Of a DNA stretch of 64,000 nt, positions 15,461-49,634 are shown in pieces. Source of the stretch: Quercus robur (lineage: Eukaryota; Streptophyta; Magnoliopsida; Fagales; Fagaceae); the NCBI RefSeq assembly GCF_932294415.1, contig NC_065538.1:80117834-80181833 (forward strand). Reading direction: 5' to 3'. How positions within the stretch are numbered: the stretch's first letter is position 1; each line of letters starts with the position of its first letter. The translations under genes were made by a program, and so were the position numbers. A model generated the notes under the pieces. That model searched no databases, was not told where the DNA came from, and was given only the letters and a program-made list of their open reading frames with translations.

Positions 15461-15687
15461 AAAAAAAAACTAATAAGAAATAACTGACCCACTAGCACTA
15501 GAAAACAGAAGTGGAAAAAGACTCCCAACACTCCAAAGTGAACTGACTTCCTTAACTCTCGGATAAACGATCCAGCACGATCCCATGATTTTGCCTATGC
15601 CTCTTCCGTTGCTCTTGATGCATATCACTCTCTCTTTGACCTCACAGTGCTTTGATTCTCTCTCATTCCCAAAGTAACTACTAAGCA

Positions 15688-16213
15688 ATGAGTGTGGCAT
15701 CAGAGAAATCCACAGTTGCGGTGTCAAACCTTCCACAAACAATCACAGTCCTCGACCTCCGTCACTTCCTCGAATCCCAACTCGGCAATGACTCAATCTT
15801 CGCCCTCGAAATCTTCACTGAGCGCAAGCAATGGAAGCCCCGAAGCTTCGGTCGAATTCAGTTCACCACACTCGAAGCCAAGCTCAAGGCCATGGCTGTG
15901 CCTCTTAATTTCGAATCCCACACTCTCCGAATCTCCGAGACAACCTACGATGACATCGTCGTACGCCCCGTGGAACCCAACCACCGACTCGATAACTGTG
16001 TTTTGCACGCGGGGTTTTTCGTTCGAGAGTGTTGCATGAGTGTGTTGGAGTCTTGGGAGGGTGTTAGGGTCTGGGTTATGCCCGAGAGACAAAGGGTCGA
16101 GTTTTGGGTGTGGCAAGGTTCGGAGTGTTATAGACTCGAGATTATGTTTCATGATGTTGGAGACTGTTCGGTGTAGTCTTGCTGATGGGGATGCTGATGC
16201 CTTGGTCTTAAAG
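15688..16213 (+). pseudogene. RDR2: RDR2-like RNA-dependent RNA polymerase, N-terminal remnant
   Basis: RDR2 copies transposon transcripts into double-stranded RNA for 24-nt siRNA-directed DNA methylation in the nucleus. This remnant starts at a clear ATG and runs about 163 codons with the RDR2 N-terminal pattern: VSNLPQTITVLDLRHFLE, ALEIFTERKQWKPRSFGRIQFTTLEAK, SETTYDDIVVRPVEP, then RVEFWVWQGSECYRLE. At about 16158 one extra G shifts the frame, so reading stops at 16174-16176, although the family string (ETVRCSLADGDADALVLK) continues in the next frame to about 16213. A possible donor (AAG|GTTTG) follows, with an acceptor at 16288. The Tat LTR element begins at 16305. About 500 residues of the middle of the protein are not found anywhere in the window. 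Confidence 0.85.
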
Positions 16214-16304: not shown

Positions 16305-16930
16305 TGATGAGGATAAAATTATGCTGACAAAGGTGACGGGACAAACTTGACAAAGGTGACGGTACAGACCTGACAAGGGTGACGGGACATACTTGACAAG
16401 GGTGACGAGATGGTTTTGCCGTCAGCATTCCTTCAAGGCTGACGGTGACCTGAACTAAAAGAACTCCACATAGGGCCGAACATCCTGAAGTTGACGGGAT
16501 AAGCGTAGACTGACGGGATAACATAAGCTGACGGCGTCAGTCTATGGAATGTTTGTTCTACACGTTTACGTGTACAAGTAAATAACTTGCTCCCCACGTT
16601 TCATGAAACCTAAGGACTCCTATATGGAAAGAATCCCGTAAAATACGCCCAAGAAGACTCTTATAAGGAAAAGACTTCTACTCCAAGGAAAAGAGGGGCA
16701 GCCCTCGCTACTATAAAAACCCAAGCACCCTCACAAACCAAGGTACGCATAATTTACCCTCTCTAGCACTTTAGAGCAGTGAGAATATTTCTAACTTGAC
16801 CTTCGGAGGGTGTTTGGCCGGTACCACACCGGTACTCCCCGCTAGGTTATTCCTTTTCGTTGTGCAGGTGCCATTTGCGATCGTACGAGGAATGTGTGAC
16901 TCACTGGTGGTATTATTTCCGGCATCATCA
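16305..16930 (+). repeat. 5' LTR of the Tat element
   Basis: The LTR starts TGATGAGG and ends CATCA, so it has TG...CA ends. The U3 begins with a 23-bp unit, 'gacaaaggtgacgggacaaac' type, repeated almost four times (16325-16410). In all, about ten TGACG cores on either strand fall in the first 230 bp. A TATA box (ctataaaaac) lies at 16711-16720, so transcription should start near 16745. The 626-bp length equals that of the 3' LTR. Confidence 0.95.
16711..16720 (+). promoter_or_regulatory. TATA box of the 5' LTR
   Basis: CTATAAAAAC downstream of the TGACG-rich U3 and about 80 bp before the conserved 'ctagcactttagagcag' stretch. The same box occurs in the 3' LTR at about 26182-26191. Confidence 0.75.
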
Positions 16931-16931
16931 G

Positions 16932-16949
16932 TTGGAGCCGTCTGTGGGA
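16932..16949 (+). other. Primer-binding site of the Tat element
   Basis: TTGGAGCCGTCTGTGGGA follows the LTR end by one base. It resembles the TGGCGCCGTCTGTGGG-type sites of many plant Ty3 elements. Which tRNA it matches I cannot decide by eye. Confidence 0.7.
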
Positions 16950-16990
16950 ATCGTTTTAGCACATTTTCGCTTCCCAGACAGAAGAGTTAC

Positions 16991-18290
16991 ATGGTACTCA
17001 CTCGCTCAATGGCGACCACCAACGACATTCAAGAAGAAGAAGCCCCTACGACCGCGCTTGAAAGAAAGGTGAGGACACTCGCCGCCGCCGTGGAGCGCCT
17101 CACCAAACAAAACCACGACCTAGAAGAACAACTGAGACAAAAAAATGCAGCTCCCAACAACCATGGAGCAGATCAAGAAGGAACTAGCGCCGACAGAAGA
17201 AACCAGGAAGGACCCCAGGCCAGCAATGCCCCGAGCAAACCAGAACGGCAAAACACGAGCATCCCCTCCCTTGCAGAAACCACTCTGCCACTTGTTATCG
17301 CAGAGATGCAAGCCATGAAAGAACAAATGGAGGTTATGATGAATGCTCTCAAGGGACGAGTATCCAGCGACCTTGACGACCTTGTCAACCGAACTGACTC
17401 GCCGTTCACCGCCACCGTCAACACCTACCCTTTACCAAGTAAGTTCCGCATGCCACAGATAGACAGTTATGACGGGGTCAAGGACCCACTGGACCACCTG
17501 GAAACCTTCAAGACCCTAATGCACCTTCAAGGAGTTGCGGACGCCATCATGTGTAGGGCCTTCCCTACAATGCTGAAGGGCGCAGCAAGAATTTGGTTCA
17601 GCTGACTGACGTCGAACTCCATCAGCACCTTCAAAGAGCTCAACGCTCAGTTTACCGCACACTTCATTGGAGGCCATCGATACAAGAAGTCTACGGCTTG
17701 CTTGATGAGTATGAAGCAGCGAGAAGATGAAACTTTAAGAACCTACATCTCCCGCTTCAACAAAGAGGCACTCTCGATCGACGAAGCCGACGATAAAATA
17801 CTTGTTGCGACATTCACGAATGGCTTGAAGAAGGGTAAGTTTTTGTTTTCCCTATACAAAAACGACCCAAAAACCATGTCGGAAGTACTTTATCGTGCCA
17901 CAAAGTATATGAACGCTGAAGATGCGCTATTAGCTCGGGAAGAGAGGCCCAGGAAAAGAGAAAGGCAGGAAGACAATCGGCAGGACCAAGGCCGGAAGAA
18001 GGCAAGAACAGGAGACCGAAGGGACGAAAGGCGCACCAAACCCCTAGGGGGAAGGTTCACGAGCTTCACTCCGCTAACAGCCCCGATAGATCAAGTCCTT
18101 ATGCAAATTAAGGACGAAGAGGCTCTGACGTTCCGGGGAAAACTGAAAAGCGACCCCAACAAACGTTCCCGGGATAAGTATTGTCGATTCCACCGCGACC
18201 ACAGCCACGACACAGCTGATTGCTATGACCTCAAGCAACAGATTGAAGCCCTCATCAGACAAGGAAAGCTGTAGAGATTCGTTAGCAAGG
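16991..18290 (+). mobile_element. gag region of the Tat element
   Basis: It begins with an ATG (MVLTRSMATT), followed by a coiled-coil stretch (LERKVRTLAAAVERLTKQN) and a low-complexity Gln/Asn-rich linker. The capsid-like retrotransposon gag domain follows (PQIDSYDGVKDPLDHLETF ... FPTMLKGAARIWF, then FIGGHRYKKS and MKQREDETLRTYISRFNKEA). The end is a basic region with a zinc-knuckle-like motif (YCRFHRDHSHDTADCYDLK). The region is recognisable throughout but not intact. Confidence 0.88.
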
Positions 18291-18539
18291 AGAAAACGGA
18301 TCCCCCCGAACAAGACCAACGTCCCCGATGGGATAATGAGCGTCCGAGGCCCCCAATCGGAGATATAAGGATGATCGTAGGAGGAACGGCTGCCGCCGGA
18401 TCGTCCAAGAAGGCCCGCAAGACCTATCTTCGGATGGTACAAAATGTTTAGCTGACGGGAGTCGTACCAAAGATAGCACGGAGAGAGGGTCCCATAATCG
18501 GATTCTCGGAAGAAGACGCGCGACGCCTTCACCATCCAC

Positions 18540-21500
18540 ATGACGACGCACTCGTCATCAGCTTGCGTGTAGGAGATTACAATATGCACCGGGTGCTGGT
18601 CGACAATGGCAGTTCAGCAGATATCTTGTACTACACAGCATTCCAGCAGATGAGGATCGACAAGGAGCGACTGATTCCAACAAATGCATCGCTTGTTGAC
18701 TTCAGCGGGAGCCGAGTATTCCCACTAGGCGCGGTCACATTATCCGTGATTGTAGGAGATTACCCTCAACAGATAGCCAAGGACGTGACATTCTTGGTAG
18801 TTGATTGTTCGTCAGCCTACAACGCTATTCTCGGGAGACCCACGCTCAACTCGTGGAAGGCGGTAACCTCCACTTACCACCTGATGATAAAGTTCCCAAC
18901 TGACTACGGAGTAGGGGAGCTGCGCGGGAGTCAGATGGCCGCACGCGATTGCTACATAGCCATGATGGAAATGGAGGATCAGGTTCAGGCTTTAAGCATA
19001 GAAGAGCACCGGACGGTAACAGAGCCGGTTGAGAAGTTAGAAGAGATACCCCTTGACAGTTCCGATCCCGGCCGGACGACCAAAATTGGAACACTCGCTA
19101 ACCCCACGGTCCGTCAGGAGCTCATAACCTTCCTCAGATGCAATCAAGACGTATTCGCATGGGGTCATGAAGATATGCCGGGAATAGACCCTTCAGTCAT
19201 GGTGCACAGGTTGAATGTGTCGCCCGCCTTTCCACCTATCAGACAAAAGAAGAGGGTGTTTGCCCCCGAGCGAGACCGAGCCATAGCAGAGGAAGTCAGA
19301 AAGCTACAGGAAGCGAGCTTCATTAGGGAAGTATACTATCCCGACTGGTTAGCAAATGTATTAATGGTCAAAAAAGCGAGCGGGAAATGGCGGATGTGTG
19401 TGGACTTCACTGACCTTAACAAGGCCTGCCCCAAGGATAGCTACCCCCTCCCGAGGGTTGATGTCCTAGTAGACTCTACAGCCCGACACCAGTTGCTGAG
19501 CTTCATGGACGCTTTCTCGGGGTACAACCAAATCCGAATGCATGAAGCCGACCAGGAGAAAACGTCGTTCGTGACCAGCCAAGGCCTCTTCTGTTACAAG
19601 GTCATGCCCTTCGGCCTGAAGAATGCGAGCGCAACATACCAAAGGCTCATGAACAAAATGTTCGCGCAACAGATTGGGAGGAATGTCCAGGTCTACGTAG
19701 ACGACATGCTAGTCAAAAGCCGAAGGGAGGAAGATCATCTAGGAGATCTCAAAGAAACATTCGACACACTTCGCTCATACAACATGAAGCTCAATCCGGG
19801 GAAATGTGCCTTTGGAGTGACGGCAGGAAAATTCTTGGGATTCATGGTATCTCAAAGGGGAATCGAGGCGAACCCGGACAAGATTCGGGCCATTATGGAT
19901 ATGGCACCACCAAGAAATGTGAAGGAGGTGCAAAGCCTCAATGGAAAGATAGCGGCGCTGAACAGGTTCGTGTCAAGGGCGACGGACAAATGCTTGCCCT
20001 TCTTCCGAACATTAAAGAAATCCTTCGAGTGGACTGACAAATGCCAGCAAGCCTTCGAAGAATTAAAGGCTTACCTCTCCTCCCCACCATTGCTAAGCCC
20101 GTCGCAGCCGGGAGAAGAACTTTTCCTCTATCTTGCCGTCTCCCCCGCAGCCGTTAGCGCGGCCCTGGTCAGAGAAGAAGAGAAAGTGCAAAAACCCGTG
20201 TACTACGCAAGCCGAGCGCTTCACGGTGCCGAAGAAAGATACCCGCCCATGGAGAAACTTGCCTTCGCATTAGTTACGGCAGCCCGTAAACTCAAACCAT
20301 ACTTCCAAGCTCATACTGTAAACGTCCTGACTGACAAGCCCTTACGACGGGCAATGAGCAGCCCCGAGGCTGCGGGACGATTGGCGCTATGGGCTATAGA
20401 GCTGAGCGAATTTGACATTCAGTACCGCCCGCGGACCGCCATCAAGGGACAGATCGTCGCCGACTTTATAGCTGAGTTCACTCATGACGAAGACAAGGGG
20501 GCAGCAGAGTCCCCTCAATGGAGCATATATACGGACGGATCGTCCAACAGGCAAGCTGCAGGGGCCAGCATTTTGCTACTATCGCCCGAAGGAGACACCA
20601 TCGAATGTATGGTCCGTCTCGACTTCCCTGCCACCAATAATGAATCGGAGTATGAGGCTCTGATAGCGGGACTTGACCTCGCCAAAGCAGCAGGGGCCGC
20701 GAGGGTAGTCATCCACTGCGATTCACAGGTCATCACTAACCAAATAAACGGAGACTACGATTGCAAGGGCGAAAAGATGAAAAGGTACCTTGATGAAGTA
20801 AGGACGAGGGTGGGTGACCTAGAAGCCAAAGTCGTCCAGATTCCCAGAGAAGGAAACGAAAGGGCCGACCGTCTCGCAAAGGCCGCTTCAGCTGAACAAA
20901 TGGTCATCCCTGGTAATGTACTCTCTTTCGTACAGCTTTCCCCGCTAATAGATCTCAGCAACATGCAGGAAGTATGCTCCGATAGTAGCTGGACAGCGCC
21001 GTTAGTTTCGTACCTAAAAAACGGGGTCTTACCAGACGAGAAGGAAGCCGCAAGGAAACTTAAAATCCAGGCGGCGAGGTTCGTCCTGATAAAAGACGAC
21101 CTGTATAAAAGAGGTTTCTCCCGACCATATCTGAGATGCTTGGGTACGGAAGAGACAGACTACGTCATGAGAGAAGTACATGAAGGAATCTGCGGAAACC
21201 ACTCAGGGTCTAGATCGTTGGTACACAAGCTTGTGTGAGCAGGATATTATTGGCCTACCATGCAGAAGGATGCCGAAGCCTATGTCAGGGCCTGCGACAA
21301 ATGCCAAAGGTTCAGCAATATTATTAGACAACCAACCGAAGAGCTGACCCCGATGACAGCCCCATGGCCGTTCGCACAGTGGGGATTAGATATTATGGGA
21401 CCATTCCCTACAGCCGTACGACAGCTAAAATTCCTGGTAGTAGGCATCGACTATTTCACAAAATGGGTGGAAGCTGAAGCTTTGGCAACGATTACAGAAA

Positions 21501-22225
21501 AGAACGTGCGGAGCTTTGTCTGGAGATGTATCATATGCAGGTTTGGCATTCCTAGAGTCTTTGTCTCGGACAACGGGAGACAATTCGACAACGACCCCTT
21601 CCGGGATTTTTGCTCACAGTTAGGAATAAAGAACCACTACTCCTCCCCCGCCCACCCTCAAGCTAATGGACAGGTCGAAGTCACGAACCGATCCTTGCTC
21701 AAGATTATCAAGACTCGGCTCGAGGGGGCAAAGGGTATATAGCCCGAAGAATTGCCAAGTATACTATGGGCATACAGGACGACGGCAAGAACACCCACGG
21801 GAGAGACACCGTTCCGACTGACGTACGGAAGCGAAGCAGTTATCCCAGCCGAAGTTGGACTCACAAGCTACAGGGTGCACAACCATGATGAGAACAAAAA
21901 CGACGAGGCTATGCGACTACAGCTCGACCTAGTGGACGAGATCAGAGCAGCAGCAGAACAAAGGCTCGCCAGGTACCAGGACCGCATGGCCAAACACTAC
22001 AACTCTCGAGTCCGACATAGAGACTTCCAAGTTGGAGACCTTGTTCTTAGAAAGGTCATGGGTGCCGCTAGGGACCCTACTCAAGGGAAACTCGGCCCCA
22101 ATTGGGAAGGACCTTACCGAGTTACATCGTGGCAGAGAAAAGGTACTTACCACCTAGAGACATTGGAAGGACAGAAGCTACCACACCCATGGAACGCCGA
22201 ACACCTACGGAAGTATTACCAATAG
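18540..22225 (+). mobile_element. pol region of the Tat element
   Basis: The domains in order are: aspartic protease with VDNGSS (about 18592); reverse transcriptase from about 19300 with FIREVYYPDWLANVLMVKK, MPFGLKNA and the catalytic YVDD (19694-19705); a first RNase H (about 20050-20470); a second RNase H with YTDGSS, NNESEYEAL and HCDSQV (about 20515-20890), diagnostic for Tat; and integrase with a His2-Cys2 zinc site (about 21170-21310), a D-D-E core (GLDIMGPFP, SDNGRQF, NGQVEVTNR) and a C-terminal WEGPYRV box. The integrase has no chromodomain. In the family gag and pol are read as one long polyprotein. The copy is broken in a few places but every domain can be seen. Confidence 0.93.
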
Positions 22226-23130
22226 GAGCGACAGCATGAAGACCGACCTATTTTTGTTATTCCAGCAAACTTTAGTTTTACTCCTCGGATTTATCATTTA
22301 CTTCAGTTTTTTCTTTTCTTGCAACAAATACTTTTTAGCCCGAAGGGTAGGATTCGGTTTTAATTACTTTTATTTAAATGCATGCCAATAAGAGGAGTTT
22401 ATTCAGAAATTGCTGGAGTATTTATTCTTTCTACAGTTCACTAATCTCATATTCTAGGACGACTAAGTCCACAACACAAGGTCCTAAAAACTGACGGACC
22501 AGAAAGATGTCAAATGACATCAAGGCCAAGGCCAAGAAGCTGACGGTCCGAAAAGGCCAAAAGCTAAAAGGCTGACGGTTCAATAAGATGGAACAACCAT
22601 CATATGGACAAGGTCCTCAAAACTGACGGACCGAGAAAAAATATGTCAAAAGACATCAACGCCTAAAAACTGACGGACCAAAAAAAATGTCAAATGACAT
22701 CAAGGCCAAGGCCAAGAAGCTGACGGTCCGAAAAGGCCAAAAGCTAAAATGCTGACGGTCCAATAAGATGGAACAACCATCATATGGACAAGGTCCTCAA
22801 AACTGACGGACCGAGAAAAAAGATGTCAAAAGACATCGAACGCCTGAAAACCAACGGTCATAAAGCTGACGGGGTTTTCAACAGTTGAAAGAACTGACGT
22901 ATTCCAAGCAGACGGGAATTTTTAAAGAGATAAAAGCTACCGAAATGAAATACATGTGCAACTGTACATAAACGACAAAGGCACTTAAACATGGTTCGAA
23001 ATGAAATACATGTGCAAATGTACATAAACGACAAAGGCACTTAAACATGGTTTAAAACTACAACTGTTTAAAAATTACAACTGTTTTCCAAAAAAAAATT
23101 TAAAAGCAACAGTTTTATACATGGCTACAA
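22226..23130 (+). repeat. 3' untranslated region with tandem repeats
   Basis: A unit of about 180 bp is present twice in tandem (about 22483-22662 and 22663-22842). It contains CTGACGGACC, CTGACGGTCC and the dyad GATGTCA-aa-TGACATC. A second array follows: a 56-bp unit starting 'cgaaatgaaatacatgtgc' occurs at 22941-22996 and 22997-23052 with two or three differences. Tat/Ogre elements are known to carry tandem repeats here, which can seed satellite DNA. No protein is encoded. Confidence 0.88.
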
Positions 23131-25362
23131 TTAAGCAGCAGGAACGTCAGTAGGGTTGCCGTCAGCCTGATGATCTTCAACATCCACGATCACGGCTGGA
23201 GAATCAGAAGCTGTAGGGTTAGCGGCAGGCTGTGCCAGGACTACACTGCCGTCATGCTCCGGAGTAGGGCCAGGCTGAGGAGAGCCGTCGTCTCCATCAT
23301 CCATTGTGATCCCAGACAAGTCCAGCTCCGGGAAGGCTGACGCGACCTGTCGAAGGCAATCATCGAACCTAGTGCCGTAATACTGACCACATGAGTTGAT
23401 AAAAGACTGCGACGCTTTGAAGTCTCTAATCGCGTCAGTCCCCGCCGTCTGTAACTTCTCCTCCAGAACCGTCACTTCTCCTTGGAGCTTGTCGTTCTGG
23501 CCACTGATCGCCGTCAGTTTTTCCTTAACCTCCTGCAGCTCTTGGTTAAGGAGACGGACGGCTTCCTTGTACTGAGCCTGCTGATTCAACAGGTTCCTGT
23601 TGTGGCTACGAACTCGGTTGACGACCCCCTCCTTCGCCACACAACGGTCACGAAGGGCCTTGACACGAACCAAGGCCTAAAAGAACGTATCCGTCAGTTA
23701 AAAAGTACACCAAAACAAGATACGGCATGTTCAACCCAAAAATGTGAGAAACCTACCCTGGAGAGATCAAAGAGGGTCGACGCCCCTAAATCCTCCGTCC
23801 CCACTTGGTCACAGGGCTCCATGTTCGTCGGCTTTATCAGAGATTCAACCTCCCCGACGGCATATTCCTTGTGGGTTAGGAGACGGCACGGACCCTCGTT
23901 GACGGGACCAGTGGAAGTCATCACCCCCTTTCCCGCGCCATGGCCAGACTTCGGAGGGGACTTTTCCGTCAATGGTTCGTCTGCAGGAGTGACGGCAGTC
24001 TTTTTTGATGGACGGCCGTCACTCCCGTCAGGTTTCCTCTTCGCCACTTTGGCGACGGCCTTGGGGGTTGACGAGGCTTCCCCCCCTGCTTCCTTGGCCT
24101 TCCTCTCTTCCTTCTGACGGGCTGCGGCGGCCCGTATCCTTTGCTTTGCGGATTCCATCTCTACAACACAAAGAAAGACTGTTAGGAAAAGTGACGGAAA
24201 AAATTAAACTGACGGAAAATAAAAGTCTACTCACGACGGTGCGCAAACTCTTCCAACCTACGAGCTTCCGCTGACGGATCTGGACCCCCACAGTATAAGT
24301 GGAGGGTGTCAAGGGTGATCAAATCCCTGCACTTACGGTCTTCCAAAGGGATTTCGAGAATCCGTTGGATGAACTCCTTCTGCTCGTCAGTTATATGCGG
24401 ACGGGTATAAGCTGAAATAAATAAGAAGTGTTAGTACCATCACCTCAAAAAACGCACAAGCCTCATGGTTGACGGGATTAACTTGAATCCCTGACAAAGG
24501 CCCAGGTGTTGTCAAAGTAACCGCGGGCCATCGTCGCCCACTCCTCCTGACGGCAGACCCAGTCCGTCCCTTCAACAAAAAAATACCTACTCTTTCAGTT
24601 CCTATTTGAGTCTGGCATATCTGACACTAGCAGTAGCCCTTTCTCCCGGGCATTAAAGTGATACGTCCCCTTAGACGAGGCGATGTGGTGAGGCCTATAA
24701 CAATAAAAGAATTCTCCTAGGGTAAGCTGACGGTGTCCTCCACTAAGACTGCCCCATAGGATTTCAGCTCCTATAAAAGTCCTCCAGGCGTTTGGGGCAA
24801 CCTGGGTGACGGATATTCCAAGGAAGTCAGCTAGTTGACGGTGCAGAGCCGTCAACGGTAACCTCAAGCCCGCAGCAAACATGGCATCATACATGCCGAC
24901 GTCAGCTGTCCTCCCGGAGTAACACCTCTCACCCTCTCTAGGGAGACGGATGGGGATGTGGTCTGGGATTTGGTAACGAACCCACAACTCCCTAAAAACT
25001 TTACCACTCATCCCAGGCAAAAATTTGTTGACGGCCCAATCCTCAGGAAGAATGAAGGGACGGTTATCTCCAGGACCCTCCGAGGTTCCTTCACTAGATC
25101 TCTCATCCCCGTCACTATCCTCCCCGTCAACATCCATTCCATCCCCGTCATTTTCATCCCCTCTTCCCTCATCCTCATCTCCCTCGGCAAAACTCTCATC
25201 GCCGTCAGGAGATTGGGCTAACGACTCTCTCTCTGACGGGAGGGAGAAGTCTGACTCGTTTCCAGAACCAAAGGTTTCGTCGTAGCCCGCTCCTTCGCAG
25301 ACTGACGACTCATCACAAGACGCGTCACTCGACATCTGACTACCTACAAGTGACGGGCTCAA
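23131..25362 (-). mobile_element. Antisense extra ORF (aORF) of the Tat element
   Basis: This lies on the strand opposite to gag-pol, between pol and the 3' LTR, the position and direction of the aORFs described for Retand-like Tat elements. The first block (about 25362-24600) encodes a Ser/Asp/Glu-rich acidic start. It is followed by a domain resembling the Pfam family 'transposase (putative) gypsy type', with MYDAMFAAGLRLPL, FLGISVTQVAPNAWR and LTLGEFFYCYRPH. Later blocks (about 24160-23760 and 23680-23131) encode a basic KRKPDG...RPSKK stretch and a coiled coil (LLNQELQEVKEKL, NDKLQGEVTVLEEKL), ending ...DVPAA. Short gaps between blocks carry splice-like GT and AG steps, so the gene is probably spliced, as known for the family. 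The function of aORF proteins is unknown. Confidence 0.75.
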
Positions 25363-25760
25363 ACTAAGTACCTAGGCTGACGGCCTTACTAATGAGGCAA
25401 AAATAAAAAAGAAAAAGAAGGAAGGAGAGAGAAGATGAAAACTTACCGGTATGGAGGCCTTCTGGATGGCTCTAGAGACAGCAACGGATAAGCCGACGGA
25501 AGTGAAGCTGACGAAAGGTGGGCGACGATCTTTCTCTCCACAAGATCAGCAAGGTTGAAATAGTGAAAAATGACTGGAAAGCGCTGTTTATATATGGAAA
25601 AAATGGCGCGGAAGACGAAGCGACGTCTCGTCAGAAGTGAAGCCAATAGGAACGAGCCACCTGTCCAAGGCATTAAATGCACAAATCCACGCAAACGATA
25701 TTCCTGCCTCTTTTGAAAACAAACTCCATAACCCGTCAGTACAGAGTCTGACGGAGGTAT

Positions 25761-25775
25761 GGAGTAGGGGGCAAG
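25761..25775 (+). other. Polypurine tract of the Tat element
   Basis: GGAGTAGGGGGCAAG directly precedes the TG of the 3' LTR, the site where plus-strand synthesis is primed in LTR elements. It includes two non-purines, so it is slightly degenerate. Confidence 0.65.
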
Positions 25776-26401
25776 TGATGAGGATAAAATTATGCTGACA
25801 AAGGTGACGGGACAAACTTGACAAAGGTGACGGTACAGACCTGACAAGGGTGACGGGACATACTTGACAAGGGTGACGAGATGGTTTTGCCGTCAGCATT
25901 CCTTCAAGGCTGACGGTGACCTGAACTAAAAGAACTCCACATAGGGCCGAACATCCTGAAGTTGACGGGATAAGCGTAGACTGACGGGATAACATAAGCT
26001 GACGGCGTCAGTCTATGGAATGTTTGTTCTGCACGTTTACGTGTACAAGTAAATAACTTGCTCCCTACGTTTCATGAAACCTAAGGACTCCTATATGGAA
26101 AGAATCCCGTAAAATACGCCCAAGAAGACTCCTATAAGGAAAAGACTTCTACTCCAAGGAAAAGAGGGGCAGCCCTCGCTACTATAAAAACCCAAGCACC
26201 CTCACAAACCAAGGTACGCATAATTTACCCTCTCTAGCACTCTAGAGCAGTGAGAATATTTCTAACTTGACCTTCGGAGGGTGTTTGGCCGGTACCACAC
26301 CGGTACTCCCCGCTAGGTTATTCCTTTTCGTTGTGCAGGTGCCATTTGCGATCGTACGAGGAACGTGTGACTCACTGGTGGTATTATTTCCGGCATCATC
26401 A
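25776..26401 (+). repeat. 3' LTR of the Tat element
   Basis: Same 626-bp length and ends as the 5' LTR, with about five single-base differences. It is followed by AGAAA, the near-copy of the AGAAG before the 5' LTR. The leading 240 bp with all the TGACG cores appear identical between the two LTRs. Confidence 0.95.
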
Positions 26402-28155: not shown

Positions 28156-29484
28156 AAATTGGGCCAATTTATCTGTCAATGTTCTCCTTGCATTCAATAA
28201 AAGTATTGTGGTTTGTCTCAAATCTGTTGGGTGGTAGTCTCTGATATGTATGCTGAGATATTTCTTTTGTTTTGGGTTTTGTTGATGTTCTGACTTTGTC
28301 TGATTGTGTTTGCTGCTGTCTTGGTGTGCAATGTAGGAGAGAAGAAGTTTTTAATTTGGGATATTGTAGGTGAATCAGAAAGAGGTGCTATAAGTACACC
28401 TTCATTTCAATTTCCATTATTTTCCTTTTATTGAGTTTTCTGAAAGATGTATTGTCTAACCTTGCTAGATTGAGAATGTATGATCAATAGAGATTGAGAG
28501 TTTATTTATGTTATGGAATAAAGGATTATTGGGTTGATTCGGTTGAATGTGAACCCAATATAGATGATTGCAGTTGCTGCCAAAATCTTGTGTCACATTT
28601 TAGTGCTAAGCAAAATGTAGACTTTTGCATAATAATGCAGCCTATTCCTTCTGGTAATTCCCTGCCACCTTTGTTTCAAAAGATTTATGAAACAAGGTTG
28701 CTAGAGAAGACATGATTGCATATTAACTAGCTAATGATGCAGCCCCATATAAAGGGGAATGGCAATAAATGACGTGTTTAGCCAACCTCAAAGAGTTGAA
28801 TTAGATTTATTAATTTGAGACGACTTTAATTAATTTTATTAATAAATTGTAATTTATATTTATTTGAAAGTGAAGTTATAATTGAAGTTATTTCTTTCCT
28901 TTGTGATAGGAACTTCTGGATTTTTTTCCCTTTATTATTCTACTAAATAATGAATGCATCAGTAAATTACCTGAATGCTGTAACTGACAACCTATTGTCA
29001 AGATTCTCTATTAGGTTAACTTTATAGTTCCATAGGGGTGGAGACGATAGTGAGTTTAACTAAATTTATCTAGTTGATTAGGATTCAAGGATAGGTTTTT
29101 ATTAATGAATATTTAGAGCTTTTTATAAATAGAATATGTTTTGACTCTATTACAGATAGCATCACATATGAATTAGTAAAGTCATAATGCTCTTAATAAT
29201 GATTAAATTCCCTCTTAGGCCTTTAAGTTGGTAAAGTATCTGATATGATGCATGAACAATGGCAGCTGTATAACGAAGTATGTTGTACTCAACTTTGTAA
29301 TATCATTTGCTTGGGGTTGTTAAAGAGGGAATAAGTGGGAGATTGGGCGTTTGTAGCATACAACTCTTGGATGAAATTATCGTTTTTCAATAACTTTATC
29401 TCTTTTCTGACATTACTTTCTCTTGTTGATTGGTTTCTGGCTTTAGAATGCTTTGACTCAAAGTGTACTAATCTTCTCTCTCAG
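28156..29484. other. Intron-like remnant of the RDR2 relic
   Basis: AT-rich and ending in the pyrimidine-rich acceptor CTCTCTCAG at 29484, just before the RDR2 C-terminal exon. A 73-codon ORF at 28494-28715 shows no similarity I recognise and no RDR motif. No trace of the RDR2 central exons was found by eye in any frame. Confidence 0.5.
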
Positions 29485-31913
29485 CTCAAGTATGGGAAAA
29501 ATGTTGACCAATAGAGATGCATCTTTAAAGGTCTTAGAGATATTGAATGGATCAGATTCTAGAAACATTCTGGTAAAAATGCTGCTTCAAGGTTATGAGC
29601 CAAATCAGGAACCTTATCTCTCAATGATGCTTCAAGCACATTATGATAACCTCTTGTCTGATTTGAAAAGTAGATGTCGAATATTTGTCCCAAAGGGTCG
29701 GATCCTGGTTGGTTGCTTGGACGAAACCGGTATTTTAAATTATGGCCAAGTGTATGTCCGCATTACCATGTCAAAAGCAGAACTGCAATCTGGGGATCAG
29801 AGTTTCTTCCGGAAGGTGGATGAGACAACATGTATAATAGTAGGGAAGGTTGTTGTGACCAAAAACCCTTGTCTTCACCCAGGAGACATCAGAGTTCTTG
29901 AGGCTATCTATGTAGTGGAATTAGAGGAAAAGGGTCTGGTGGATTGCCTTATCTTCCCTCAGAATGGACAACGGTATACATCACATCTCTAGATTAATTG
30001 TTTTTTAATTTACATTTTTGGATTAGAGTCGGCAATTATCATGGCTGCACCAGATATGGTATGTTAGTGAAGTGCAATTATTAGAACCATTGCGTTGCTC
30101 AACCTTTATTTTACCACAACGATTTGACAAGATCATGAAAAACTCATCTTCCTACTTTGACCATTTCAGTTTACCTTCCTAAAGTATTTAGGTCCTCAGA
30201 TTGTTATATATCACAAGGATCAGGGTGACATATAGTTCTGGCATATGAACTGTAGAGTTTAAACTTGGGCATGTCCCTGTGTAGTGAAGTTAGTTAATTT
30301 CATATTATGGATATGTTAATATTCACTTGGTTTTATTGGGAACTCTGTATTCCTTTCCTCGTGGAGTTCTTCTTTGTTTATTATTTTTATTAAAGAAAGT
30401 TATTTGTTGGAAGGCTTTGCTGGGTTGAGCGGAGTTTACTACCATTTTTACTACATCCTTCATGTTTTCCTAGGCAATGCATTTACATTTGATGTCATTA
30501 GTGATTGCGACAATCTAATGCCTTTCTCACAGGGGCAATTTTACCTAGTATCCTGGTTAGCAACTACTCTTGAAACCCACTTTCCCTTGCCAGGAAAAGG
30601 AAATTTTCATTTCATTAGTGATTGTGACAATCTCTTGCCTCTCACAGGAGCAGTTTTACTTAGCATCTTGATTTGCAACTACTTATGAAACCCACTTTCC
30701 ATTACCAGGAAAAGAAAATTTTCATTTCATTCTGTCTAAACACCTGCCTGCATTTAACCTCTCATTCTTTTTAGTCACTTACCTGCACTGGGCAGTCATT
30801 TCCTACAACAATATCTTGAGCCATGTATTATTATAACAACACATAACAGGGCATGAAGGAATGGTTAGTTCTTAAACAGATAATAATTTTATCAAGAATT
30901 TGTGTCCACAGACCACATCCAAATGAATGCTCTGGTGGTGATCTTGATGGAGACCTGTACTTCATTAGCTGGGATAAAGATCTCATCCCCCATCAAACTG
31001 AGGCCCCAATGGACTACACAGGGAGACGACCTCGTATAATGGATCATGATGTGACATTAGAGGTATATTTTCTAAACTTAGTTTTACCCTATAGAGTTGA
31101 AATAGAAGTTCCAGTATATTTTTGTTATTTATTATTTGCTCTTCTCATTAGTCTGGGTGAACTTGCAGGAAATCCAAAAGTTTTTTTGTTGATTACATGA
31201 TCAATGATACTTTGGGTGCCATCTCAACTGCACATTTGGTTCATGCTGACCGTGAGCCAGATAATGCCCTAAGTAAAAAATGTCTAGAGTTGGCAAACCT
31301 TCACTCAATGGCCGTCAACTTTGCAAAGACTGGTGCACCAGCTGAAATGCCCAGGGTTTGGAAACCAAAGGAGTTTCCAGATTTCATGGAGAGGGTAGAC
31401 AAACCCATGTATACCTCCAACAATGTATTGGGCAAGCTCTACCGTGCCACTGTTGAATCAACCGTGCAAGAAAGGCCAAACTTGGTCCAGTTGGAGAAGT
31501 TTTCTAAAGAAACTTACGATAATGATCTTGAAGTGGATGGTTTTGAGGCCTTCCTTGAAATTGCAGAAAAACACAAAGACCAATATATAGAGAAAATGAC
31601 TAGCTTAATGAAATATTATTAAGCTGAGACTGAGGATGAAATGCTAACAGGTAATCTGCGGAAACGTGCTGCATATTTGCTTCGTGATAACAGGAGATAT
31701 GGTGATTTTAGGGATCGGATTTTGCTCTCAATGAAGAGGCTGCAAAATGAAACCAAAGAATGGTTTGAAATGAGTTGCAAACCGCATGAACGTCAGCAGA
31801 TGGCCTCAGCATGGTATCATGTTACTTATCACCCTACTTATTACCGGGAAGACTTTAATTGCTTGAGCTTTCCATGGATTGAAGGTGACTATTTGTTAAC
31901 ATTAAAAAATTGA
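29485..31913 (+). pseudogene. RDR2: RDR2-like RNA-dependent RNA polymerase, C-terminal remnant
   Basis: Three exons with good splice sites survive. Exon a (29485-29973) gives MGKMLTNRDASLKVLE, LVKMLLQGYEPNQEPYLSMML and GRILVGCLDETGIL. Exon b (30912-31062) holds the catalytic GGDLDGD loop, the DxDGD signature of cellular RNA polymerases of this type, with DLDGD intact. Exon c (31169-31913) gives STAHLVHADREPDNALS, KTGAPAEMPRVWKPKEFPDF and RDNRRYGDFRDR. Two lesions in exon c disable it: seven T instead of six at 31181-31187 (the FFVDYM codons), and an in-frame TAA at 31620-31622. Sequence order and wording match RDR2 rather than RDR1 or RDR6. With the middle ~500 residues missing and the Tat element upstream, no full protein is possible. 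Confidence 0.9.
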
Positions 31914-32660: not shown

Positions 32661-38448
<5,788 letters not shown>

Positions 38449-38496
38449 CGTTTTCCAATGAAGATTGTAGGACATGAGAGTGCGTAAGAAGAGCAT

Positions 38497-39540
38497 CTGA
38501 ATGCATGTGTGTTAATTCATATTAATACCTCAAGCCGAAGCTCACTATTCACATATATCCACATTTGTTTTTAGCGTGTTGACCTTCAAGTAATTGCGTC
38601 ATTTCTTATTTGCTTTATTAAGCCTTCTAGAATGAAACAGATTGAGATATGGTGCAGGAAAACCAAACTGCCGACAGGGGTGGGATCATGTACAGTCCAG
38701 GGGTTCAAAAGAAGAAGACGAAACACCTGTTAATATTCCAGAATTAAAAGAATTATTTGAAATTGATTGTTTATCATCTACAAAACACTTTTTTTTTATT
38801 TATTATTCAAGAACCAAACACCTTTAATACTCAAGAACCAAACACCTTTTTATTTATTTATTATTTATTTATTTTTTATGACATGCCCACGGAATAAGAT
38901 TACCTGCCCCCAGAATAAGATTACTGCCTTGAATTAACCAAATGGGCACTACGTTATATAGATTATTGGATTGCACGTCCCACACGGCTAAGAAAACTGG
39001 CGTGAATGAAGTTTCGACGAGAGTTGACATAGAAATTGACTTTGCTTCCATCCGTCAATGGTTACGGGAAATGGAATAATCATTTCAGGGAAGACGACGG
39101 ACGGTCGAGTAATATTATAATAATACCTGATTCCTATACCTAACGGGTTATATTAAAATCACAACATTTGTCACACCCTATATATATATATATATATATA
39201 TTGTTTGTCATTTTTACATAAACAGGTTATTTTCTTTTTTTTTACCACTTATAGTTTGTTACACCATTTTCTTTATTTACTATTTATAGTTTGCTATGTT
39301 AGAGTTAGTGGTAGCTTTAGGATTTTTTTAGAGGAGTTGATAAGAAGATGCATTTTGGGTAATAAATTTATCTTGCAGTCAACATTGTTTCCTTATTATA
39401 AATTTGTCTATTGTATGCACTAGCAATAGAATAAAAAAAAATAAAGTATAAGTTCATTTGACATTTTTTTCTTAATGCAACAAGCATATTAATTTTTTTG
39501 CTAAGCTAATTTTATTATTACTGCTTAAAATACTTTTATC
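38497..39540. other. Upstream region of the intact kinase
   Basis: Contains a possible TATA-like 'gatatatgtgaa' on the minus strand at about 38547-38558, roughly 100 bp before the preferred ATG, and a GGTCAA/TTGACC W-box-like core at about 38578. An (AT)n run lies at 39180-39201. The rest is AT-rich with no ORF of substance. Confidence 0.4.
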
Positions 39541-45109: not shown

Positions 45110-46205
45110 TTAGTGACCATCAATTAAAGAAATTGTTACTTCATTTACAGAATTGATCTTTTTACTAGTTGATCTGTATTTACTATTATAAGAACTCTTC
45201 AAAATAAATGCAAGTTGTTTTGGAGAAGGAAGGGGTGTGTCATTACCCAACATGAAAACAACTGCTGCCATGGTTGGTCGATCTATTGGATATTCTTGCA
45301 CCCATAAAAGCCCAATTTGAATGCATTTGATAACTTCAGTAGCAGGGCATGTCTCACCTAGTGATGAATCAACTATTTCCATAGCTTTGCCTTCTCTCCA
45401 TAGGTCCCAAACCTACAAACAACATATTCATTATATTAGGCAAAATAAAATGAGGCTAATATTGTAATTCACTCTTTGCATATGTACTTATATGTCCAAT
45501 TAAATTTGAAGAGGGATTGTCACGATAATAATTACTATTCCTTTTACTAGTTATGATCTCTAGTAGCAACACCCCAAATCTAAATACATTAGACTTTATT
45601 GAAAATAGTCTTTGCATTGTGTATTCTGGTGACATATAACCACTGTAGCAAAACAATGAAAAAAGAACTACTGAGCCTTGCTTATTATTCAACAAAAATT
45701 AAGAAAAAAAGCTCTAGCTTTGTGCACCAACTATGCAAAAAGTGGAAACTATTAATAAGTTTTTATCTTGGGATAGACTTACTATGTTCCAACGATGCAA
45801 TTTATCTTTGCTTCAATTTGGTCCCCTCCAAAGATTCTAGCCATACCAAAGTCTGAAAATTTTGGATTTAGTGCAGTATCAAGTAGGACATCGCTAGACT
45901 TTAAATCTCTATGGATAACTCTTAATCTCAAGTCTTAATGAAGATATAAAATTCCTCAAGCAATCCCACAAATAATCTCCAACCATTTTCCCCAATTTAA
46001 ACATGACCGTTTTGTGTCATCTAAAATAAGGGACAAGAACATAGATCAGACGGCATGGATGCTTAAGTGTTTATTCGTTATGGACCTATTCTAATGATGA
46101 TGCAAGAAGTTCATATAAAAAAGAAGACATACCAAAAAGGACAAAGTCCAAGCTCTTGTTTGGCATGTACTCATAGATTAACATTTTCTCTTCTTCTCTT
46201 CTAGC
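45110..46205 (-). pseudogene. S-domain receptor kinase pseudogene, truncated
   Basis: Only the kinase 3' exons remain: part of exon 4 (about 46205-46133, [16 protein letters not shown]), exon 5 (46020-45783, with [14 protein letters not shown]), exon 6 (45642-45492, [18 protein letters not shown]) and exon 7 (45412-45110). Exon lengths 5-7 (238, 151, 303) equal those of the intact gene. Lesions: lectin, PAN, membrane and P-loop exons are missing; a stop replaces a Gln in the YLHQD motif of exon 5; and the exon 6 donor is AT instead of GT. It cannot make a receptor. Confidence 0.9.
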
Positions 46206-46428
46206 TTGCACACACTTTTTTCTTCCATGATCTCAATGCTGGAAAGAATGTCTCTTGGAGTTGAAAACAATGCGCTTTTCAAATATTAAGTGACTAAGAT
46301 CAAGAAACTTATGACAAAGAATTGATTTTGACATACCCATCTGTAAAAAAACATGTCTAGAATATCATATGAAACCAAGCAAAAAGATAGTAATTTGGTA
46401 TACCCACCTCCTCAATCATCTCTCTGTG

Positions 46429-47144
46429 CAGGGGCGGTTTGATGCATTTAGAGGCCTTAGGCGAAAATTGACTCGAGACTTTTCATATATTTAAATATGA
46501 CTTTTTTTTTTTTATAAAAGAAAATTAACATTACTTAAATTCTATTATCTTGTTTTAAATGCAAAATTATTAATTAACCATGTAGAATCGTTTTTTCTTT
46601 AGAAAATCTATAGACATAAAAAAATTGACAAAACTTTTCGCAGTTGTTGATGTGGCAAATTGGCAATGGTAAGTAAAAATGTGATATTAGTGGTAGACCT
46701 AGATGAAAATTAGTGAAAGTTGACAACTCAACTGTTATGAAAAATTTGTGAAATTCTTTGTGTATTGCTCTATTTTTTTTTTTTTTTTTTTGTGAAAAGT
46801 GCTATATTTACAATATTTTCACAATAAATCCTAAATATTAAGTTGTTACTAGTTCTAATTTAAACTCACCACTGAATTACTTTTTTTCCCACCAATAACA
46901 GCCAGTAACAACTTGCCACTTAGGATTTATTGTGAAAAATGTTATGAACGTGGCATTTTTCTCTCTTTTTTCTTGTTTTTTATTTGATAAAAAAAAGCTA
47001 TTTTATTTATTGGCTAATATTTTTGGGCTTAATGAATAAGTTTATAATATAAAAAATTACTTTATTGGCCAAAATTTGGGGGCCTTTTTCTACTCGGGGG
47101 CCTTAGGCAACCGCCTCACTTGCTTTCATACTAGAGCCGCCCTG
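46429..47144. mobile_element. hAT-type nonautonomous transposon with perfect 8-bp TSD
   Basis: The element starts CAGGGGCGG and ends CCGCCCTG, and is flanked by TCTCTGTG on both sides (46421-46428 and 47145-47152). CAGGGGCGG-type ends with an 8-bp duplication are typical of plant hAT elements. Interior strings 'ggccttaggc' near both ends extend the inverted repeat. It contains a nested foldback MITE at about 46799-46956. No transposase codons. Confidence 0.92.
46799..46956. mobile_element. Foldback MITE, family A copy 2, inside the hAT element
   Basis: The arms read 'gctatatttacaatattttcac' and, on the other side, 'gtgaaaaatgttatgaacgtggc', the same family as 1539-1702. The internal pair 'agttgttact' / 'agtaacaact' is also shared. 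It is preceded by a T run (46772-46791). Confidence 0.65.
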
Positions 47145-47195
47145 TCTCTGTGCTCCATATTTTAGTTTTAACTACGAGACCGAAGCAACTCCTAC

Positions 47196-48015
47196 ATCAT
47201 CTTTCAAGAGAATAAGTCCAGTACTTGTGCTAATAGTAATTCTAGCAGTACTCTTCTTCATTTATGGTCTTTCAAAAAGATGGGATGCTTCCTACGTGTA
47301 GTCATGCTTTGCTTTTCATAGAGTGAATAAATATATGGCTTTTTTCAAACTCAACATGCCCTCTAGGTAGAGGGACTCTATTGGGCTTTGGCAATCCTAT
47401 GGAAATTCCAGCACTTAATTTTGCTGTTTCCAGGGAGCAATCAAGTAGGCTTCCTAATGATGGAGAGAATAGGTCTTCTAGTAGTTAGAAGCCAATAAAT
47501 ATAAAGGAAGCTGTTGGCGAAAAGAGAGTATTTTGATTTTCTGTGAGACTTGGGAAGTTCAGAAGCTTACATGATGGAGTAGGTTGTAGAAGGAGAGAAG
47601 GGGAAACAAGTAGCTGTAATTTGGATGCTAGAAGGTGTTATTCAATCTTAATGGTACATTTCAGACTTTTCAGTAAGTGGTTGATGATTCAAATCTACAA
47701 ATGGCATTGTCTGATGGTAGTGGTGTTGGTGATGGAGGTGGTAATGTGAAGCATGTCAATGAAAGAGGATACCTTGCAAAATTTTCAGATAACGGGGATG
47801 TGGAGGGAAAAAAAATCAGTGGCCACACAAAAGGCGAGAGCTTCTCCGTATCGAAGATCTGGCTTTGGTCAAAGAAGAGCAGATTTCCAAGTTCTTTAAA
47901 CAATCGTATGGATTTGCTGCCTTCCTTAATGCAAGTATCCCAATTAATAACAATGAAACTCATGCTTTGTAAAAGGTGTATGACTAAATTTTTTTGTGTG
48001 CTCTCTTGATTAATC
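47196..48015 (+). pseudogene. ATL-type RING-H2 pseudogene, copy 2
   Basis: It begins with a hydrophobic segment (SPVLVLIVILAVLFFIYGL, about 47216-47275), then jumps by deletion to 'MLPTCSHAF' of the RING. The 'GLDQAFIDALP' and CAVC parts are lost. A corrupted RING end follows, then GTLLGFGNP. The tail motifs are RLGKFRSLHDGVG, EGETSSCNLDARRCYS, VDDSNLQMALS and SKIWLWSKKSRFPSS, spread over more than one frame (47540-47960). It keeps the 'LDARRCYS' tail better than copy 1, while copy 1 keeps the RING better, so the two decayed separately. Confidence 0.85.
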
Positions 48016-48127
48016 AATCACAGACATATAAGCTAGTAATGCTGTGTCCTGTTTTTCTTATTTTTAGTTATATTGGAAAGATATACCTCTTATTTAAAAA
48101 ATTTCTCATGTTTTGCCAAAAGTTTCA

Positions 48128-48388
48128 GGCCAAAATGGCCAAATGGCTATAAAATTCTAAGTATATAGTTAGTAGTTCTAGTTACCAAACTATATTACTT
48201 ACTAGCATCTCGAGTTTAAAAGACTCGATTTTACCCTATAAATCGAGTCTCAGGGACTCGATTTTCATGGTCTAATCATTTCCGACGTGGCATATTTTTC
48301 CACGTGGACACATGAAAATCGAGTCTCTAAGACTCGATTTGTAAACCTTATAAAGGTCAAAGCAGCACCTAGAAGAACCCAGACTCAG

Positions 48389-48442
<54 letters not shown>

Positions 48443-49026
48443 AAAACAGATGGAGAAGAACCCAGGCTGCACGGCGAACCACACTGCCTGGCCTGGGTCA
48501 CGCACGGCCAGGCCACGTGTGCTGCGCACGACCCAGGCCTGCGACCTGGCCTGGGTTGCACACGGCCAGGCCGCGCGACCTAGGCCAATCGATCCAGGTT
48601 CTTCTGTTCTGGGTTCTTCTCTCTTTCTGTTTCTGGGTTTTTTTTTTTTTTTTTTTTTTTTTTTCTCTGGATTCTTCTCTGATATGTTCTGGGCAATTCG
48701 CCTCTCTCATCTGATCTAATTCTTTCTCCTTTGATTTGATTGTTGTGTTTCTGGATTTCTTAAAAAAAAAAAAAATTGTTTATTTTGGCTTGTACGAGAG
48801 ACTTGAGAGTTGAAATTTTTTAAAATTTTTTTGGTTTATAAATCGAGTCTTAGAGACTCGATTTCCAAATAGGGAAAAAATGCCACATCACACCATGGAA
48901 ATCAAGTCTTTGAGACTCAATTTATAGACTAAAATCGAGTCTTTTAGACTCGAGATGTTAGTAAATAATATAGTTTGGTAACTAGAACTACTAACTATAT
49001 ACTTAGGATTTTATAGCCATTTGGCC
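48128..49026. mobile_element. MULE-like element with ~110-bp TIRs and 9-bp TSD
   Basis: The terminal inverted repeats begin GGCCAAATGGCTATAAAAT and run over 100 bp, almost identical between 48136-48235 and 48930-49026. AAAGTTTCA flanks both sides (48119-48127 and 49027-49035), a 9-bp duplication as for Mutator-like elements. The left duplicate at about 4887 reads 'aaaagtttcaagggca' without the insert, an exact empty site. Inside are six near-palindromes of the type ATCGAGTCT...AGACTCGAT, a run of about 52 A (48389-48440), and a GC-rich patch (48450-48600) with 'cacggccaggcc' twice. No transposase. Confidence 0.92.
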
Positions 49027-49035
49027 AAAGTTTCA

Positions 49036-49466
49036 AGGGCAAGTTCCCTCGCGTGCATTTTATTTTATTTTTGATAGGTCCATAGCATGCATTTTGTTGC
49101 AGTAATGGAATTCAAGATTGTTAGAGAAGTGTGGGGGGAAAGGCCCAATTGTAAAAAATGGGCCTGTGATAGTAAGTCCAAAGATCCAAAGGAAGAGTCA
49201 GAGAAAGAAAGTATGGCCCACTCAGGCAAAGCTAGCCCAACCTTGAAAAATCCTGAAGGTATACCATGTGAGGGCCAACACCTCCTCGTCAAGTTTTCTC
49301 GGCTACAATTGAAGTGAGACAAAAAACAAACAAATCCAACTGCCCAACGGAGGAAACGTCTTAACTAAGCAACCATCCTTTTCACGTTAAATGACATCCA
49401 CTCACTAACAGTGTCACATTTATTGCTAAATGACCCATTAAGACAATACTTAACATCATTTTTTCC
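49036..49466. other. Flank between MULE and LINE, possible LTR left part
   Basis: The first ~70 bp continue the ATL 3' flank. From about 49118 ('tgttagagaagtgtgggg') the composition becomes GC-richer with 'gggcc' strings. Together with 55442-55700 past the LINE, which holds a TATA-type 'aatataaatag', this could be an old solo LTR split by the LINE. Ends and family are not established. Confidence 0.3.
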
Positions 49467-49634
49467 GAATAAAGTCAAGTTCGTAGAGATGCTCTCGGGC
49501 TTAGGCACGTAGAGCAGGTTCAGTCTTGCAGCTCCGCTTGCAAGAAGTGTGGTGGCTCCCGGAGTGAGGCCGTGGCTCGTTCCCCTCTTTCACCTCGTCC
49601 GCTGCTGGGCTGACCCCCAACGGAAGTAGTGTCG

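Follow-up and report, generated by a model that had tools for sequence, protein, structure and literature searches.

Why should a single six-base word be written again and again into one retrotransposon, on both strands and inside open reading frames as well as between them? The question is raised by a 64-kb stretch of the Quercus robur genome (hereafter the window, meaning the whole stretch of DNA that was analysed, on contig C5 of a 786-Mb genome in which relatives were also searched), where a Ty3/gypsy long terminal repeat (LTR) retrotransposon of the Retand type spans positions 16305-26401. Between pol and its 3' LTR this element carries an antisense gene, or antisense open reading frame (aORF), with a Transposase_28 (TRP28, PF04195) stretch, and the hexamer TGACGG is packed into its LTRs, the noncoding region behind pol and the antisense gene. 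We favour, with moderate confidence, the reading that TGACGG is a selected recognition site whose reader is most likely encoded by the element, with TRP28 as the best candidate, and that this reader acts in a way resembling the VANC proteins of Arabidopsis VANDAL transposons.

Distribution of the word in the window copy

We counted TGACGG together with CCGTCA, covering both strands, and used first-order expectations for each compartment. The window holds 68 occurrences where 10.0 are expected, a number reached in 0 of 100 shuffled sequences, so that the excess over shuffled sequence proposed in an earlier note on this DNA stands; the hand counts given there (30 in the antisense region, 9 in the untranslated region (UTR) behind pol, 8 per LTR and 5 in gag-pol) proved exact on recount. 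Each of the two LTRs has 8 TGACGG with 0.28 expected, the UTR repeat region (22226-23130) 9 with 0.24 expected, and the antisense region (23131-25772) 30 with 1.38 expected (p 1.6e-29). When all hexamers were counted by compartment, as the earlier note had proposed, TGACGG had the lowest p in both LTRs and in the antisense region, and it ranked second in the UTR, behind the overlapping CTGACG. No significant excess was found in gag-pol (5.3 kb), where synonymous-codon shuffles give a mean of 2.5 for the 5 TGACGG observed and 107 of 1000 reach that number. GGACGA, by contrast, is mildly over-represented on both strands of gag-pol (12 by count; 11 in the tested frames against 5.2, reached in 8 of 1000 shuffles), an excess that may be the trace of an older word in the TGACGG clade.

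Within the antisense region the sites lie on both strands (16 plus, 14 minus), and their flanks carry at most 0.31 bit at each of 14 positions per side. Sites wholly inside antisense frames number 23, against a mean of 4.36 under shuffling of synonymous codons (maximum 13; 0 of 1000 shuffles reach 23), and the other 7 of the 30 lie outside these frames. The lack of flank similarity and the excess over the synonymous shuffle together mean that the motif of the antisense region is a six-base word written repeatedly, in and out of frames; the earlier view that codon use is insufficient to account for a motif present on both strands and within the aORF frames is borne out.

Close and diverged copies and signs of selection

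A protein search of the genome for relatives of this aORF type gave at least 161 matches. We examined 34 copies of the same aORF type, hereafter clade A, comprising the window copy, the 29 next-best loci and 4 hand-chosen diverged copies with 73-80% base identity over the antisense region. TGACGG is the commonest NGACGN word in all 34, at 3.8-11.3 per kb of the stretch examined, and a copy of this aORF type lacking the motif, which would have spoken against the earlier proposal, was found in 0 of the 34.

Retention of the window copy's sites was compared with that of control CpG hexamers having their CpG at the same place. The 4 diverged copies keep 42-57% of the TGACGG sites and 16-24% of the control sites, and among the 29 close copies retention of TGACGG lies above the CpG control in 25, equals it in 1 and falls below it in 3. 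Over the 6 pairs among the 4 diverged copies (pairs that are not independent), 647 hexamer classes had 15 or more sites, and none of them had a lower retention p than TGACGG (71/154, p 8e-8).

To follow losses, we used the 29 close copies and sites kept by at least half of the copies (27 of the 30 motif sites and 128 control sites), taking the window copy as reference and treating the copies without a tree. Private site-breaking alleles, read as mostly post-insertion changes, occur 1.74 times per site at TGACGG and 1.63 times at control CpG hexamers. Alleles shared by at least two copies, read as mostly inherited via transposition, occur 0.37 times per TGACGG site against 1.02 times per control site (Fisher p 0.0025), which makes shared losses about 2.7 times rarer at the word; the deficit is also seen against non-CpG hexamers (p 0.0046). 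Loss of TGACGG seems to run at the ordinary rate in dead copies and below it in replicating lineages, and because shared losses are rarer while private losses match the control, selection probably keeps the word in replicating lineages.

Other TRP28 clades and their words

Searching the genome for PF04195 gave a list of 150 matches, every one above the curated cut-off of 26.2 bits, and we analysed eight of these loci, assigned to clade B (L073, L075, L076), clade C (L074, L077, L078) and clade D (L079, L080). Their TRP28 exon 1 has 23-27% protein identity to that of clade A. PF04195 matched at E up to 1 in 11 of 11 aligned TRP28 exons, and no other Pfam family matched exon 1 at that threshold in the same 11.

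Clade B is enriched in GGACGA, which occurs 32, 33 and 24 times per 4.8 kb in L073, L075 and L076 with about 1.9 expected (p 3e-18 to 7e-30), and has only 3-5 TGACGG per copy. As in the window copy, the word is dispersed on both strands in L073, with flanks of at most 0.41 bit, and it exceeds the synonymous shuffle within the antisense frames of the three copies (8, 14 and 10 against 1.3-2.6; 0 of 1000 each); its retention p is the lowest of 172 classes (55/95). Clade C is enriched in TGACGA (18 in L074, 15 in L077 and 9 in L078; p 8e-12, 4.5e-11 and 7e-6), with GGACGA second among NGACGN words. In L074, the only clade C copy shuffled, the antisense frames give TGACGA 10 against 2.56 (0 of 1000) and GGACGA 9 against 4.00 (5 of 1000). 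The leading word is therefore TGACGG in 34/34 copies of clade A, GGACGA in 3/3 of clade B and TGACGA in 3/3 of clade C, and the suggestion that motif and aORF type go together was right. In comparisons involving clade D, TGACGA and GGACGA are the two best-retained of 24 classes (p ~0.008 each).

GGACGA also occurs at the integrase end of clade B (4, 5 and 3 times against 0.6-0.9 expected). Together with the GGACGA excess in the gag-pol of the window copy, this makes the confinement of the word to the non-pol parts a property of clade A. The earlier statement that gag-pol is spared thus holds for clade A and fails for clade B, whose integrase end carries its own word.

For comparison we took ten control windows outside the element, in nine of which the best non-simple hexamer has p 1.8e-6 or weaker. 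The p values of the clade words in clade A and B stretches (7e-17 to 1e-39) are far below this level, which the weakest clade C value (7e-6) does not exceed. The sole strong non-simple hexamer of the ten windows is ACTCGA/TCGAGT in 45700-50499 (12 against 1.07 expected, p 1.8e-9). A LINE-type retrotransposon at 49614-55375, with endonuclease, reverse transcriptase (RT) and zinc knuckle, has no strongly enriched dispersed hexamer.

Genome-wide triplets of the words

We defined a dense triplet as three occurrences of a word separated by gaps no longer than 30 bases and used the reversed pattern as control, finding 876 triplets against 209 for TGACGG, 1094 against 87 for GGACGA and 1671 against 135 for TGACGA in the genome. 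Positions were compared on contig C1, and pairs on C1 and C2, using the places listed, about the first 100 per word. Of the clade A genes on C1, 10/11 lie within 10 kb of a listed TGACGG triplet and 0 near TGACGA or GGACGA; of the 7 clade C/D genes there, 3 are near a listed TGACGA triplet and 1 near TGACGG. A degenerate TRP28 signature matches 707 places in the genome (control 0), and the 24 signature-only places on C1 are near listed triplets of TGACGG in 1 case, TGACGA in 4 and GGACGA in 5.

Starting from the triplets, 17/36 listed TGACGG places on C1 are near any TRP28 (random mean 0.67, maximum 4 in 1000), as are 11/25 listed TGACGA places (random mean 0.44, maximum 4); within 5 kb there are also 5 listed GGACGA places against 0.44 at random (maximum 3 in 2000). 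Among the listed TGACGA places there are 13 pairs spaced 8.5-10.7 kb apart, 10 of them with a TRP28 signature ~1.1 kb inside one end, a geometry as expected of LTRs. As a marker, TGACGGTGACGG performed poorly, with 93 matches against 283 for its reversed control.

Two long regular arrays with a satellite-like appearance were met on C2, one of GGACGA at 2534216-2534945 (mostly 19-bp steps) and one of TGACGA at 20894018-20894503 (mostly 30-bp steps); both have perhaps grown from Retand post-pol repeats.

Proposed reader and alternative explanations

One word in non-homologous parts of the element, and a different word in each clade, point to a reader with a clade-dependent preference. Since all clades would share any host factor, an element-encoded protein is the simplest reader. 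We regard TRP28 as the best candidate because it is predicted to bind DNA (it has no known function according to PMC11963269), because it diverges strongly between clades, because coiled-coil-like frames are also found in the aORF, and because comparable aORF proteins have in some cases been reported as nuclear or DNA-linked (PMC7264820). In a survey of recently active Retand clusters, 97% carried the antisense TRP28 gene (PMC11963269). Lineages without TRP28 include Athila and the chromoviruses, and two Helianthus clusters are reported to lack it. A search for TRP28 relatives among solved structures returned a single chance-level match (E 0.57), and a single-sequence AlphaFold model of exon 1 (predicted local distance difference test score 40.9) was of too low a quality to be of use. 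The literature searched, which was judged by titles and abstract openings and left subscription journals mostly outside, yielded no paper linking a motif to TRP28.

From the dispersed, clade-specific and selectively retained word we infer the identity of the binding protein and the effect of binding as follows. Double-stranded TGACGG sites, scattered over LTRs, post-pol repeat and antisense gene alike, would be read by the TRP28 protein from that gene, selection would retain the sites while the element replicates, and the specificity of the reader would change between TRP28 clades in step with the element. Dense binding would most likely mark the element's own copies for loss of silencing, for transcription from the LTR and antisense promoters, or for both; the coiled-coil-like frames could permit joint binding of many sites. 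The LTR cluster lies between the sense and antisense TATA-like sites and so could feed both promoters, and the sites in the gene body suggest marking of the whole copy, as is the case for VANC21 on VANDAL21. More tentatively, and with rather less confidence than in the recognition site itself, we suggest that each antisense TRP28 reads a clade-specific NGACGN word spread over LTRs, repeats, introns and also exons and counters the silencing of its own family, that this arrangement evolved independently of VANDALs with words following the divergence of the protein, and that gag-pol may keep older GGACGA traces.

Of the alternatives, the one that survives best, although we consider it unlikely, also has the aORF protein reading the word, not for anti-silencing but as a transactivator of the LTR and antisense promoters, an integration copy-targeting factor or a nuclear positioning factor. 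A transcriptional regulatory role has been suggested for TRP28 by Vicient (PMC11963269), and the LTR cluster is suitably placed, ~180-380 bp from the sense and 210-410 bp from the antisense TATA-like site; promoter activation alone, however, needs no ~30 gene-body sites. Such a plain transactivator would be Tax/Bel-like.

A host transcription factor (a TGACG-binding bZIP/TGA or WRKY-like protein) binding the sites for element expression, with the aORF protein uninvolved, seems to us improbable. As-1-type sites of TGA/bZIP factors have TGACG followed by T, as in TGACGTCA. TGACG is indeed the core of TGA-factor sites and the source of the family name (PMC11900138), and the 8 sites of each LTR lie upstream of its TATA-like site. 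Yet the base after TGACG in 22226-25772 is G in 39 of 51 cases, A in 6, C in 3 and T in 3, so that the TGACGTCA-type T (TGACGT) is rare, and the TGACGG field is not a field of as-1/TGA sites. The clade B word GGACGA does not contain TGACG at all, 23 sites lie within antisense frames, and a shared host factor would not predict a separate word per clade. The earlier suggestion of a host TGACG-binding factor as reader is disfavoured by the first two of these points. Taken as a whole, the earlier interpretation is supported in part.

A mutational origin, in which the hexamer serves no function and was multiplied by slippage, tandem duplication or gene conversion, is very improbable as an account of the whole. 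Tandem repeats do explain most of the UTR and LTR sites, since the two-copy 180-bp repeat contains 8 of the 9 UTR sites and 23-bp or 19-bp repeats contain 6 of the 8 LTR sites, but a 15-bp repeat contains only 2 of the 30 antisense-region sites, and we rejected tandem-repeat copying as the full cause. Further points against it are the dissimilar flanks of the 30 antisense-region sites, the retention of TGACGG above control, the deficiency in shared but not private losses, and the CpG that every motif contains and that decay should remove. That the excess follows from aORF protein sequence and codon use, as the location of most antisense-region sites within frames might suggest, is ruled out for practical purposes by the synonymous shuffles, the 7 sites outside frames and the enrichment of the UTR and LTRs.

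Several observations weigh against an element-encoded reader that matches its clade's word, or narrow its basis. Every relative comes from one genome, the three clades amount to only three independent contrasts, and the element comparisons cover TRP28-bearing LTR elements only. In the LTRs, retention of TGACGG is only slightly higher than that of the control (0.825 against 0.780, 28 LTR loci). Retention of TGACGA in clade C is weak (31/45, fifth of 75 classes), and the 2 old copies of clade D both lack a clear word, which either counts against a universal rule or reflects decay. The PF04195 score of clade A (20-21 bits) is below the cut-off, those of clades B and C being above it. None of the 10 clade B genes on C1 is near a listed GGACGA triplet (0/10 near TGACGG, 1/10 near TGACGA), and the dense GGACGA triplet therefore failed as a clade B marker among the places listed. 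Listed GGACGA places near TRP28 on C1 number 5/47, with no clear excess at 10 kb (random mean 0.93, maximum 6 in 1000). Away from any detected TRP28 lie 42/47 of the listed C1 places of GGACGA, 19/36 of TGACGG and 14/25 of TGACGA, which may be diverged TRP28 missed by the signature, non-autonomous elements or unrelated sequences. LTR-like pairs spaced 9.4-10 kb apart occur without detected TRP28 for TGACGG (C1:5434273/5444156, 11843764/11853800 and 17166143/17175719) and for GGACGA (C1:11924652/11934024, 14940143/14949600 and 43270739/43280399), and these six are diverged, non-autonomous or unrelated elements. Finally, because the element is inherited as a unit, another of its proteins could be the reader.

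Comparison with known systems

Plant LTR elements such as Tnt1, Tto1 and similar ones have promoter repeats in the LTR that are bound by host factors. Their likeness to the element studied here lies in repeated short motifs in U3 upstream of the TATA; they differ in that their sites are in the LTR, whereas the present element has its sites mostly in internal parts and its word varies between element clades.

The closer parallel is with sequence-specific anti-silencing by the VANC proteins of VANDALs, which are Mutator-like elements of Arabidopsis. According to PMC5735166 and PMC10398659, these have element-specific short words that are dense and differ between related families, motif-bearing tandem repeats, and a protein that diverges together with its target, all of which have counterparts in Retand, where the element-encoded protein is a candidate; a 2025 meeting report (PMC12859917) also mentions coevolution of VANC structure and target DNA. 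The family-specific short motif at high density is present here as well, and unclear in the 2 clade D copies. For VANC21 on VANDAL21, motif density is reported to influence localisation, and the whole element loses methylation (PMC5735166). The differences are equally plain. VANDAL is a Mutator-like DNA transposon, whereas LTRs and pol identify the present element as an LTR retrotransposon; the VANC domains DUF1985 and DUF287 gave no Pfam match at E up to 1 in 11 TRP28 exon-1 proteins; the word here is 6 bp long with a CpG and occurs on both strands, in LTRs and antisense frames, whereas VANC21 motifs are described as mainly noncoding and arrayed in the same orientation; and binding and demethylation were shown for VANC, while the Retand word is known here from sequence alone. 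The element is not a member of the VANC/VANDAL system, and it appears to work like VANC in anatomy and evolution, as far as can be judged from its DNA.

With the Retand elements carrying antisense TRP28 described by Vicient in 2025 (PMC11963269), the element has in common the LTRs (626 bp here), the distance of ~3.55 kb from pol to the 3' LTR, a tandem repeat and the antisense PF04195 ORF. That account predicts DNA binding by TRP28 and, in the part of the source at hand, names no target motif; candidate words are supplied here.

Element anatomy and genomic surroundings

The features of the element are collected in Table 1. The distance from pol to the 3' LTR is long, as in Retand, and the antisense ORF with TRP28 between the two, another Retand feature, is present, with a match below the PF04195 cut-off. 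Gag-pol matches the Pfam families Retrotrans_gag, RVT_1, RT_RNaseH, RVT_3 and rve. Judged by domains and layout rather than RT phylogeny, the element is built like members of the Retand lineage (Ty3/gypsy, Tat group); the label Tat given in the earlier note is correct at the wide level, and the finer anatomy is Retand.

The two LTRs of the window copy differ at 5/626 positions. This copy is decayed, having stops in gag-pol and a shortened aORF exon 1, whose frame is 258 amino acids long with a premature stop, against ~297 in most listed relatives; relatives with an uninterrupted exon 1 are present in the same genome. The antisense TATA-like site TATATAAA is found at the matching place in 30/30 close copies (window copy counted), and no exact TATATAAA is found at the corresponding place in the 4 diverged copies.

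Table 1. Positions in the window of the element's parts and of the TGACGG field
Feature	Position	Strand	Description
5' LTR	16305..16930	+	626 bp; 8 TGACGG at 16334-16534, upstream of TATA-like site at 16712
gag-pol	16931..22225	+	gag, RT, RNase H domains, integrase; interrupted by in-frame stops
Post-pol noncoding region	22226..23130	no strand	two-copy 180-bp tandem repeat; 9 TGACGG, all +
TGACGG field	22492..26005	both	47 sites, from UTR repeat to 3' LTR; 32 +, 15 - (counted in 22226-26398)
Antisense gene (aORF) region	23131..25371	-	candidate exons taken as stop-to-stop frames; TGACGG on both strands
aORF open frames	24595-25371, 24227-24430, 23694-24203, 23131-23676	-	stop to stop
PF04195 Transposase_28 (TRP28) stretch, aORF exon 1	24774..24885	-	E 7e-4, 20.2 bits
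Antisense TATA-like site TATATAAA	25587..25594	-	candidate aORF promoter
3' LTR	25776..26401	+	626 bp; 8 TGACGG at 25805-26005; sense TATA-like site near 26183

The element is flanked by pieces of a host RNA-dependent RNA polymerase gene (15685-16176 and 29447-31622), with an RDR2-type PH-like domain (E 7.5e-6, just under the cut-off) and RdRP matches (E 5.8e-39 and 8.4e-29), and may thus have landed inside a gene of the RNA-silencing machinery. A possible 5-bp target duplication (AGAAG/AGAAA) is imperfect. Further along, 37078-38511 on the minus strand encodes the extracellular part of an S-locus lectin receptor-like gene (B_lectin, S_locus_glycop, PAN_2).

Implications

The clade-specific candidate target words open the function of TRP28 to direct experiment and to re-analysis of methylomes. 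If the proposed reading is true, a second class of plant transposons would have acquired sequence-specific self-recognition like that of VANC, using an unrelated protein, and such self-recognition would be visible in the DNA itself, through clade-specific words under selection.

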